Below, one piece after another: positions 4,283 to 44,399 of a stretch of DNA of 44,399 nucleotides. Source of the stretch: Myxococcota bacterium. GTDB taxonomy: Bacteria; Myxococcota_A; UBA9160; SMWR01. The translations under genes were made by a program, and so were the position numbers. The stretch lies in assembly GCA_039030075.1 (NCBI GenBank), contig JBCCEW010000038.1, positions 1 to 44,399 on the forward strand, given 5' to 3'. Within the stretch, counting starts at the first letter, position 1, and the number at the start of each line of letters is the position of its first letter. The notes under the pieces are model-generated. The model ran no database searches. It was not told the DNA's origin and worked only from the letters and a program-made list of their open reading frames with translations.

Positions 4283-4912
4283 CTACGCCCGAACGCGCGC
4301 TCGGCGCTGGCGCCAGGTCAAGCCGAGGAGGCCGACCCACACGAGCGAAGCCACGCCCGGTTCCGGGACCACCTGCCGGACGTCGAGCACCTCGATGTTC
4401 ATCATCAGGCGCCGCGCGGTGTCGATGTCGGGGCCGGCGATGAAGCGGAAGAGGTCGTCGGGCCGGCAGACCGCCGAACTCGTGCACTGGAGCTCGGAAA
4501 GGACGGCCGCTGCCGTCCACTCGAGGTCGAGGTTGTCGGCCGTGCGCGCGTAGAAGTTGGGCGCCGTATCTGCCGCTGCGAGCAGGTCGAGCTCGGCCGT
4601 CGTCCAATCCACGAAGCCGCCCTTCAGGATGGTGAAGTCGATGACGGTCATCGGTGCGCTGGCCGGGTCCGACTCTGCGACGTCGCTCAGCCTCACCGAG
4701 AAGACATCGTCGTTGAAGTAGTCGGCAACGGAGACCGCGAGGTTCCGGCGGATCGCGGACTCGGTGCTCCGAAAATCGCTGACGCGGAGGTTCTCCAGGC
4801 TCAGCCGGACATCCGCGGCCGCGGGAAGATTCTGGGCCAAGGCGACCACGGGCCCGAGGAGTGCGCAGAGCGCGACGGCAATGGAGAGGAGGGGGCGACC
4901 GGCTCGCAGCAT
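4283..4912 (-). CDS. exported protein with PEP-CTERM sorting tail
   Basis: This 209-residue protein starts at ATG 4912, with GAGG about 8 nt upstream of it. It has a signal peptide (LLSIAVALCALLGPVVALAQ), a body of about 155 residues with alternating strands and helices, and a C-terminal VVPEPG followed by a hydrophobic segment (VASLVWVGLLGLTW) and a basic tail RQRRARVRA, the classic PEP-CTERM signal. The body has no recognised domain. The same frame is open upstream into the DUF6010-like gene, but the intervening residues look non-coding, so the ATG with the SD and signal peptide is chosen. Anchoring by an exosortase encoded elsewhere is likely from family knowledge. Confidence 0.8.
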   Translation of the reverse strand: MLRAGRPLLSIAVALCALLGPVVALAQNLPAAADVRLSLENLRVSDFRSTESAIRRNLAVSVADYFNDDVFSVRLSDVAESDPASAPMTVIDFTILKGGFVDWTTAELDLLAAADTAPNFYARTADNLDLEWTAAAVLSELQCTSSAVCRPDDLFRFIAGPDIDTARRLMMNIEVLDVRQVVPEPGVASLVWVGLLGLTWRQRRARVRA

Positions 4913-10642: not shown

Positions 10643-12499
10643 TCAGATGTCGGCACCGCGGAAGGCGGGGGACCGGGCCCGGAACGCGGCAGCTCGGGGA
10701 GAACCCACCGGCCCGGCCGCGCTGCGAACGGCCTCCACCAGATCGGCGGCCGAGAACGGCTTCGAAACGAAACGGTAGTCGGCCGGGATGTCGCGGCGGG
10801 CCATCACGTCGTCGCGATCGAATCCGCTCATCAGTACGATCGGGAGCGTCGGGGTTCGCTGACGCAGCGCTTCGGCCACCTCGCAGCCGTTCTGCTCGGG
10901 CATGGTGAGATCGAGCAAGGCCGCGTCGATGACCGGCTCGCTGCTCGCGAGCTCGAGCGCGATGCGTCCGCTGCTCGCTTCGAGCACACGGAAGCCCGCG
11001 CGTTCGAGGAGACGGCGCGCGACCCTGCGGACGCTGGGTTCGTCGTCGACCAGGAGGACGGTGCCCGTTGCGCTGGGGATCGCGCGCGTAGCGGTCGCGG
11101 GCGCCTCGGCCAGACCTGGGGTGTAGGGCAACAGGAAGCGAACGCGCGTGCCTCGTCCGGGGGCCGTGGAGACGGCCAGGGCGGCATGGTGCCGTTCGGC
11201 GATGCCCTCCACCGCCGCCAGGCCGAGCCCGCTGCCCCCTTGTTTCGTGCTGAAGAAGGGCTCGAAGATCTGGCCCTGGATGACGTCGTCCATCCCAGGG
11301 CCGTTGTCTCGCACCTCGAGGTACGCGTAGTCGCCGGGCGCGTGAGCGCTCCCGAAGCGCATGGCTTGGAGCGCGCCATCGTTCACGGGTTCGATGCCCC
11401 AGTCGACGTCGATCGTTCCCCCTCCGCTCCGGCAGGCATCGACGGCGTTCTGCACGAGGTTGATCAGCACCTGATCGAGCTGGGCGCCGTCGGCCTCGAC
11501 CGTCAGTGCGTGCGGGGTGCCCCGTTCGCGGATCTGGACGCCAGTCGGAAGCGACGAGCGGAGCACGCGCGCCACTTCACGGACACGGGTTCCGAGGTCG
11601 ATCCGCGCCACCTCGGGTTCGGCCTGGCCCGCGTATGCCAACAGCTGGTGCGTCAGGCGGGACGCATGTTCGGTGGCCGCGCGCGCGTCCTCCAGCGTCG
11701 CTCCGACCGATGCGGGGAGGTCGGTCTCGTGGGTGGCGAGCTCGAGGTTGCCGCCGATGGCGGTGAGGAGGTTGTTGAAGTCGTGCGCGATGCCGCCGGC
11801 CATGAGCCCCAGCGATTCGCGCCGCTGGGCCGCTTGCATGGCTTGCTGCATGGCGAGCCGCTGCTCGTTGGCCGCGGTGGCCTCGCGGAGAGCCTGAGCG
11901 GCAGCTTGTTCCCGCTCTTCCGCGCGGCGTCGGAGCGCGTTCTGCCGCATCACCGAGTTTCGCCGCGTCACGAACACGGCGACACTGGCGAGGAGCCCGG
12001 TCCCGAAGCGCACCGTCCACTCGCTCCAGGCCCCTTCGAGCGGCCAGAGGAGGGCCAGGGGAGCGAGCCAAGCGGTGGCGAGTACGGCGAGCGCCCCCAT
12101 GAACCAGCCGGGGCGCAAGAAGCCATACCCTGCGGCGAACGCCGCAAGGGTCATGTACACGCCGTGACTCGGGTCTCCGAGGATCCAGAGTTCGCGCGCG
12201 TTCACGAGTGAGACGAGCGCGACCAGGCACAGCAACCAAGGGTGAGCGGCTCGTTCGGAGACGCCCTGGTGGGCTTGCACGCGCCAGCACACGAGCAGCA
12301 CGAGCGCCGCGATCCCGTGCGCGACCTGCTGTTCGCCCGCGTACTCCTCGGGGCGCCCGAGCCAGGGTCCCACCAGGGCGACGGTCAGGTAGAGCGAGCC
12401 GAGTGCCAGGAACGCGGGAGCGACCAGTTCGGCCGCGACCTGATCGAGGATACGCAGATCGCGGTCTACGCCAGTCGCCTCTTCGCGATCGCGATGCAT
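10643..12499 (-). CDS. hybrid sensor histidine kinase with C-terminal receiver domain
   Basis: This 618-residue protein has about five or six membrane helices in residues 25-180 and no obvious periplasmic sensor domain, so the membrane region may itself sense. A linker coiled coil follows, then HisKA with phospho-acceptor H239 (GGIAHDFNNLLTAI) and HATPase_c with NLVQNAVDA, DNGPGMD, FEPFFSTK and GSGLGLAAV boxes. Residues about 490-605 are a receiver with the acidic LLVDDE pocket, phospho-Asp D530 (ALLDLTMPE) and the conserved Lys in VSKPF. It therefore autophosphorylates and relays internally; no partner regulator or Hpt gene is adjacent. The AHDFNNLL H-box is the type common in Myxococcota and Proteobacteria hybrid kinases. 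The signal is unknown. Confidence 0.93.
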   Translation of the reverse strand: MHRDREEATGVDRDLRILDQVAAELVAPAFLALGSLYLTVALVGPWLGRPEEYAGEQQVAHGIAALVLLVCWRVQAHQGVSERAAHPWLLCLVALVSLVNARELWILGDPSHGVYMTLAAFAAGYGFLRPGWFMGALAVLATAWLAPLALLWPLEGAWSEWTVRFGTGLLASVAVFVTRRNSVMRQNALRRRAEEREQAAAQALREATAANEQRLAMQQAMQAAQRRESLGLMAGGIAHDFNNLLTAIGGNLELATHETDLPASVGATLEDARAATEHASRLTHQLLAYAGQAEPEVARIDLGTRVREVARVLRSSLPTGVQIRERGTPHALTVEADGAQLDQVLINLVQNAVDACRSGGGTIDVDWGIEPVNDGALQAMRFGSAHAPGDYAYLEVRDNGPGMDDVIQGQIFEPFFSTKQGGSGLGLAAVEGIAERHHAALAVSTAPGRGTRVRFLLPYTPGLAEAPATATRAIPSATGTVLLVDDEPSVRRVARRLLERAGFRVLEASSGRIALELASSEPVIDAALLDLTMPEQNGCEVAEALRQRTPTLPIVLMSGFDRDDVMARRDIPADYRFVSKPFSAADLVEAVRSAAGPVGSPRAAAFRARSPAFRGADI

Positions 12500-43161: not shown

Positions 43162-43281
43162 GGGCGGCAGTCTACGCATGGGCGATCGATCGGCAATCGA
43201 ATCGTTTCGCCTGAGGCGATATCGCGCCAACCCCGCAGCTTCAAAGCATTTCTGCGAGTTTCCCTGCGAAAAGAACGCGAT

Positions 43282-43308
43282 TTCCCGAAATGGGAAGAGT
43301 TTTTCCCA
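43282..43308. promoter_or_regulatory. overlapping inverted repeats TTCCC-N5-GGGAA and TGGGAA-N6-TTCCCA
   Basis: TTCCC (43282-43286) and GGGAA (43292-43296) form the same TTCCC-N5-GGGAA element seen twice near the XRE gene at 9935-9974. TGGGAA (43291-43296) also pairs with TTCCCA (43303-43308). They lie about 100-125 bp upstream of the predicted sigma54 start, the usual distance for an enhancer-binding-protein site. Confidence 0.5.
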
Positions 43309-43347
43309 TCCCCAGCGATCGGTCATGTCAACATGCCCAAAAAACCG

Positions 43348-43373
43348 AGGGAATTCAGGTACATGAATTCCCT
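43348..43373. promoter_or_regulatory. 26-bp perfect palindrome with 10-bp arms next to the sigma54 promoter
   Basis: AGGGAATTCA and TGAATTCCCT are perfect inverted arms around a 6-nt GGTACA spacer. They end 5 bp before the -24 element, too close for a typical enhancer site, so repression or DNA bending is as likely as activation. Confidence 0.6.
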
Positions 43374-43378
43374 TGACC

Positions 43379-43395
43379 TTGGCATGGGGATTGCT
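43379..43395 (+). promoter_or_regulatory. sigma54 (RpoN) promoter of the terminal secreted-protein gene
   Basis: TTGGCATG at 43379-43386, GGGA, then TTGCT at 43391-43395 matches the sigma54 consensus TTGGCACG-N4-TTGCW with one mismatch. The invariant GG (43381-43382) and GC (43393-43394) are exactly 12 bp apart as required. The expected start is near 43406, 61 nt before ATG 43467. Confidence 0.75.
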
Positions 43396-43466
43396 GCCTA
43401 ATAACCCCATCGGTTCGCGCGCTCCCTTCGAGGTTCGGAGGGGCATTCCAAATCCGAGGAGACAAA

Positions 43467-44399
43467 ATGAGACTCAGTCGACTTGCGCTGATTGGCGTAT
43501 CCGCCATCAGCCTGTTAGTTGCCGGCTCGGTCCAGGCGCAGACGTATATCATCAGCGCCAAGGCCGGTTCGGCGACGGGTGGCTTCATCGACTTGCCCGC
43601 AGTGGGCGCGTCGCCCTGCCCGTCGATCACCCAGGGCTTCCGCATCGGAACGATGGTTCCGCAGACGGCTACGCCGCCCATCACGGGCATGACGCCCGCC
43701 AACACCCAGAGCGCGATTGCGTTCCCGGGCGGCTGCATGCGCGGCAACCCGGCGGTGCAGACCGTGATGGCCACGGGCACGATGGCCGGCGCCCAGTTCA
43801 CCGTGCCCACGAGCGTGATCAGCGCTCCGGCGACCATGGTGAACAACGTGCCGGTGCCGCTGGTGCCGAACCTCCAGCAGCTCGCCACGAGCTTCAACTT
43901 CGCGGGCCCGATGTCGGTGCCCTTCGAGGCCCAGAACCAGACGATGGCGACGGGCAACAACACGGGCGTGTGGCGCCGCATGCGCGCCGGCGCTTGGACG
44001 ACCCAGACGGGTCGCGCCGGGTCCAACTTCACCTGGTGCATGGGTTCGCCGCCGAACCCGCTGTGCACGAACATCACGGGTGCGGGCGCGGCTTCGCCGG
44101 GCATCATCAAGAACACCGCGGGCGTGAACGCCTTCGGTGGCACGATGGGCCTGGTGCTGACGACGGGCACTAACACCTCGTCCCTCGCGGTGCTGGGCCT
44201 GCCCGGTCTGCCGGGCGGTGTTGGCCTGCAGGTGATCGTGGGCATGGGCTCGCGCGCAGCGGGTCGTGGCTATGCCGCGTACGACACGGACATGCTGGCT
44301 TCGGGTCCGATCTTCCTGATGTACACCCTGACCATGACGGGCCCGTTCGGCCTGGTGGGCATGGTGTCGACCCCGATCCCGAACATGCTGCCCGCGGGC
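43467..44399 (+). CDS. secreted low-charge Gly/Thr/Met-rich protein, 3' end outside window
   Basis: ATG 43467 has GAGGAG 5 nt upstream; 311 codons are open to the window end with no stop. An N-terminal signal peptide (RLALIGVSAISLLVAGSVQA) precedes QTYIISAKAGS. The rest is rich in Gly, Thr, Ala, Met, Pro and Asn with very few charged residues (only four acidic residues are seen), plus six Cys scattered from residue about 50. Thr/Met/Gly phrases recur (for example MATGTMAGAQFT). Codon use is strongly biased to GGC, ACG, CCG and GTG. No domain is recognised; a matrix or surface structural protein is plausible. The C-terminus, where a CTERM tail might lie, is not in the window. The dense upstream control region suggests conditional high expression. 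Confidence 0.75.
   Translation, partial: MRLSRLALIGVSAISLLVAGSVQAQTYIISAKAGSATGGFIDLPAVGASPCPSITQGFRIGTMVPQTATPPITGMTPANTQSAIAFPGGCMRGNPAVQTVMATGTMAGAQFTVPTSVISAPATMVNNVPVPLVPNLQQLATSFNFAGPMSVPFEAQNQTMATGNNTGVWRRMRAGAWTTQTGRAGSNFTWCMGSPPNPLCTNITGAGAASPGIIKNTAGVNAFGGTMGLVLTTGTNTSSLAVLGLPGLPGGVGLQVIVGMGSRAAGRGYAAYDTDMLASGPIFLMYTLTMTGPFGLVGMVSTPIPNMLPAG

Follow-up and report, generated by a model that had tools for sequence, protein, structure and literature searches.

The window (the whole stretch of DNA analysed here, 44,399 bp) is an entire contig, C38, of a 5.76-Mb genome (G000) that is 95% complete in 55 contigs. Its last gene runs past the end of the contig, which is also the end of the window. 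Elsewhere in the window, 10643–12499 (− strand) encodes a hybrid histidine kinase that includes a receiver domain. The last gene and the features in front of it are as follows.

43259–43263, + strand: outermost half-site, TTTCC, roughly 22 bp before the next site; one half only fits the dimer consensus
43272–43285, no strand assigned: putative activator dimer site A, AGAACGCGATTTCC, 8/10 to GGAAA-N4-TTTCC (two mismatches)
43293–43306, no strand assigned: putative activator dimer site B, GGAAGAGTTTTTCC, 9/10 to GGAAA-N4-TTTCC (one mismatch)
43349–43372, no strand assigned: 24-bp palindrome, GGGAATTCA-GGTACA-TGAATTCCC, of differing geometry and adjoining the −24 box
43379–43395, + strand: predicted sigma54 (−24/−12) promoter, TTGGCATG-GGGA-TTGCT, assigned from sequence and a consensus count, with equivalents before most homologues
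43406, + strand: predicted transcription start, placed from the −12 position
43456–43462, + strand: ribosome-binding site, GAGGAGA, assigned from sequence
43467–44399, + strand: secreted protein gene, 311 aa readable, with a signal-peptide-like N-terminus, open at the contig end

The original prediction held that a near-consensus sigma54 promoter, preceded by a phased array of six TTCCC/GGGAA half-sites, stands in front of a gene for a secreted, surface or matrix protein. The promoter bears this out: its GG and GC lie in the correct −24/−12 register, it scores 8/8 on the consensus count, and a start at 43406 is consistent with it. The strict form of the sigma54 site has only three copies in the genome, with one in a reversed control. 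Taken alone, a match of this kind would be weak evidence for a promoter, so the case is carried by conservation and by the sites upstream.

Those half-sites are where they were said to be, with TTCCC starting at 43260, 43282, 43303 and 43368 (spacings of 22, 21 and 65 bp, as claimed) and GGGAA at 43292 and 43349. Dinucleotide shuffles of 43200–43378 contain 1.03 half-sites on average, none of 5,000 shuffles reaches six, and any other 125-bp stretch of the window holds at most five. Two points of the prediction needed revision. Palindromic pairs are present, but three rather than two can be drawn, as one GGGAA (43292) serves in more than one of them; the geometry conserved elsewhere is that of the pair 43292/43303 (site B) alone. 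The phased array upstream of the promoter also stands, but its unit is better read as a GGAAA-N4-TTTCC dimer site, and the TTCCC half-site was dropped as the unit in favour of a GG-N10-CC dimer site after comparison. Site B stands 87 bp before the −24 element, counted to the T of its TGG, and sites A and B are 21 bp apart, which resembles the spacing of about 20 bp upstream of the candidate activator gene described below. The palindrome at 43349–43372 has another spacing (its arms are separated by N6), is not the recurrent unit and has no comparative support in relatives. By eye, a same-genus homologue of the window gene (L050) also has a palindrome beside its −24 box, of different sequence.

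The product of the window gene is probably a PEP-CTERM-sorted surface protein. Its C-terminal sorting tail would fall beyond the contig end, and the assignment follows from two relatives, a paralogue on contig C7 with 83% identity and a homologue from the same genus with 48%, both of which end in LPEP-type sorting tails; the tail of the paralogue scores 14.5 bits with TIGR02595 against a cut-off of 16. Elsewhere in the window, 1434–1508 and 4301–4369 (both − strand) hold weak PEP-CTERM-like tails that fall short of the cut-off. The named relatives of the gene are metagenome-assembled genomes of Myxococcota or Deltaproteobacteria, which makes a myxococcotal host probable, and a profile of the secreted family finds matches in 45 of the 80 genomes of the order, many of them distant or partial. 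A weak match to the family lies at 1551–1703 of the window (− strand). The AlphaFold model of the family has a mean pLDDT of 32 and is unusable.

The motifs were sought upstream of homologues, as the original prediction had proposed. Among close homologues whose N-terminus can be read, most are preceded by a sigma54 site of at least 6/8, and the activator dyad precedes some. Six homologues (L040, L042, L043, L047, L050 and L054) share a common dyad near GGAAA-N4-TTTCC. Two further homologues, in G032 and G012, carry the site without mismatch, at 134 and 132 bp respectively from a sigma54 site of 7/8 that follows it. In other genera, too, some homologues show this arrangement of dimer site and sigma54 promoter. 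Six others (L041, L044, L045, L048, L049 and L051) keep the sigma54 site and lack the GGAAA-N4-TTTCC site. Five of these (L041, L044, L045, L048 and L049) carry a different 15-bp dyad, GGYGGATTNTGCRCC, at −112 to −114, and L052 carries it at −205; its fit in these upstream regions is 11–14 of 14 scored positions. This suggests that another activator acts on the same promoter in those homologues. Upstream of the 83% identical paralogue on C7 there is neither a sigma54 site nor an activator site. As judged by sequence, the DNA before the window gene is a real, conserved on-switch of the sigma54 type, which would stay off until an activator protein is bound close by.

How widely is this predicted switch used? 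The genome has four exosortase (PF09721) matches above the cut-off and 93 TIGR02595 (PEP-CTERM) matches, most above theirs. Gene starts were picked with a simple score for signal peptide and ribosome site, and some may be wrong. On these starts, a forward sigma54 site of at least 6/8 precedes 5 of the 93 genes, against two on the reverse-strand control, and one of at least 7/8 precedes four, against none. GGAAA-N4-TTTCC with at most one mismatch is found at three of the five sigma54-bearing genes and at 0 of the 88 others (Fisher p = 8e-5). We therefore rejected the idea that all PEP-CTERM genes form a single regulon, given that only 5 of 93 have a sigma54 site of at least 6/8; the predicted switch covers only a few of the roughly 93. 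One further gene, an LDLR-repeat gene with an LPEP tail (C5:2070), was set aside, as it has a sigma54-like site and no activator site.

Across the whole genome, the dyad occurs 46 times when up to one mismatch is allowed, against 24 in a reversed control. Counting neighbouring sites separately, a sigma54 site of at least 7/8 stands at a distance of 81–159 bp from 9 of the 46, which fall into six loci, compared with 0.68% of random positions. The enrichment seen within this genome is partly circular, as the motif was derived from homologues together with three promoters already known at that point, those of C3, C6 and the window; the scan added C5, C7 and C49, and the independent cases for the motif are the C5 and C7 promoters and the G032 and G012 homologues. 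The C49 locus lies in a coding frame, and sites at C49:3030, C31:7079 and C2:325345, all within long open frames, were treated as chance. All seven promoters of the set in this genome have GGAA-N6-TTCC 81–159 bp before the −24 element; across spacers of 0–12, the only match besides N6 is a single one at spacer 2. Downstream of them are the window gene, four PEP-CTERM genes unrelated to it, an AAA/HisKA regulator gene and a cluster by a fused exosortase. The cluster, downstream of the C7 promoter (L211, 222–226 kb), lies next to a gene that fuses exosortase and EpsI and encodes a protein with thrombospondin-type-3 repeats as well as two PEP-CTERM proteins, and the regulator gene, downstream of the C5 promoter (L210:1367–3310, − strand), has weak sigma54-activator-like AAA, AAA lid and HisKA matches. 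In the order as a whole, where the genomes are relatives and their sites are not independent events, the exact motif occurs 340 times in 80 genomes against 82 in the reversed control, and 75 times against 4 in the family of this genome.

The most likely activator of the window promoter, on present sequence evidence, is an NtrC-type response regulator encoded at C31:12912–14363. It has the GAFTGA loop and, like AtoC, NtrC and ZraR, receiver, sigma54-interaction and Fis-type helix-turn-helix (HTH_8) domains, although it falls below the curated cut-offs of those three families. Searching the genome with the PrsR profile (TIGR02915) returned 51 matches, 22 above 140 bits, and a comparison of coordinates found the dyad with at most one mismatch upstream of this gene only among the 22. 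Exosortase, EpsI, chain-length and polysaccharide genes lie near it, and exosortase/EpsI or chain-length genes adjoin its orthologue, wholly or partly, in nearly all relatives examined. Orthologues are 73–89% identical in 18 of the 21 other genomes searched, with second-best matches at 49–55%. In 18 genomes tested, this one included, the region upstream of the gene contains the dyad with no more than one mismatch in 13, where shuffles give a mean of 0.34 and a maximum of 2; allowing two mismatches raises the count to 17. The N6 spacer is prominent (16 against 3 or fewer). We infer from these upstream sites that the gene may be autoregulated. In this genome no sigma54-like site lies beside its upstream dyads, so it may be regulated otherwise than the window promoter.

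The original prediction had also pointed to the published PrsK/PrsR system, and this link was not supported. In proteobacteria, a sigma54 site and an activator motif ending in TTTACA precede 99 of 167 PEP-CTERM genes and are assigned to PrsR and PrsK (Haft et al. 2006, PMC1569441). The layout there is alike in its −24/−12 promoter and upstream motif or dyad at genes for PEP-CTERM-type products, and in its response-regulator activator, often encoded near exosortase and exopolysaccharide genes. However, motif 1 of that system is 17 nt long and ends in TTTACA, whereas the site here is GGAAA-N4-TTTCC; by eye, neither TTTACA nor TGTAAA occurs in 43200–43378 of the window. The best PrsR match in this genome reaches 416.4 bits against a cut-off of 502.6 (the C31 regulator scores 402.5), PrsK (TIGR02916) exceeds its cut-off in none of 18 genomes, and only about 5 of 93 PEP-CTERM genes here have the arrangement. 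We therefore rejected PrsR/PrsK as the regulator and regard its governing the window gene as highly improbable. A mapped −24/−12 start and measured RpoN dependence are on record for pepA, a PEP-CTERM gene of Aquincola tertiaricarbonis (PMC9850573), a different organism; here the promoter is predicted, with a GGAAA-N4-TTTCC dyad upstream of it. DVUA0057 of Desulfovibrio vulgaris, an exopolysaccharide-operon response regulator, binds upstream of PEP-CTERM genes in DAP-chip data (PMC3333781); it resembles the C31 protein as a response regulator in an exopolysaccharide context, and its regulon is without a validated binding motif. We found no report of the GGAAA-N4-TTTCC motif in the literature, where our coverage of subscription journals was thin.

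A more serious competitor, though still an unlikely one, is that the sites and promoter are real and read by another NtrC-family protein, with the C31 gene merely one of the targets. Any of the 22 substantial PrsR-profile matches could be the activator, and the AAA/HisKA gene under the same type of promoter indicates that regulators can be targets. Against this, the C31 gene alone among the 22 has the upstream site, and it is strongly conserved together with its sites in an exosortase/polysaccharide locus. It is also very doubtful that the TTCCC/GGGAA elements are sites of a repressor or global DNA-binding protein unrelated to sigma54 activation. The palindrome at 43349–43372 does adjoin the −24 box, and a repressor bound there could obstruct polymerase, but in every promoter of the set in this genome the dimer sites stand 81–159 bp upstream of the sigma54 site, a usual distance for an activator, and they recur in other genera.

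We consider it likely, then, that the window gene is driven by an enhancer-dependent sigma54 promoter belonging to a small PEP-CTERM/exosortase-linked set and read by an NtrC-family regulator, most likely the C31 protein. RNA polymerase with sigma54 would sit on 43379–43395, held closed, until dimers of the response regulator, bound two helical turns apart on the GGAAA-N4-TTTCC sites at 43272–43306, open the promoter through a DNA loop. The product would be secreted and probably PEP-CTERM-sorted at the surface.

On this account, the window case varies the known PEP-CTERM/sigma54 arrangement, from which it departs in its putative activator and in its site. A broader reading, to which we give about even chances, is that in this Myxococcota order an exosortase-linked NtrC-type regulator with a DNA code of its own, GGAAA-N4-TTTCC, replaces PrsR for a few PEP-CTERM genes, and that homologous sigma54 promoters in other genera have switched to a second activator site, GGYGGATTNTGCRCC. 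If true, that switch would be a case of one activator being exchanged for another while the promoter is conserved. The small size of the set suggests that most PEP-CTERM genes of such a genome lie outside this control. In the papers we found, no regulation of PEP-CTERM genes is described for uncultured Myxococcota; a conserved, testable candidate regulator and its site can now be named for surface-protein genes of these bacteria.
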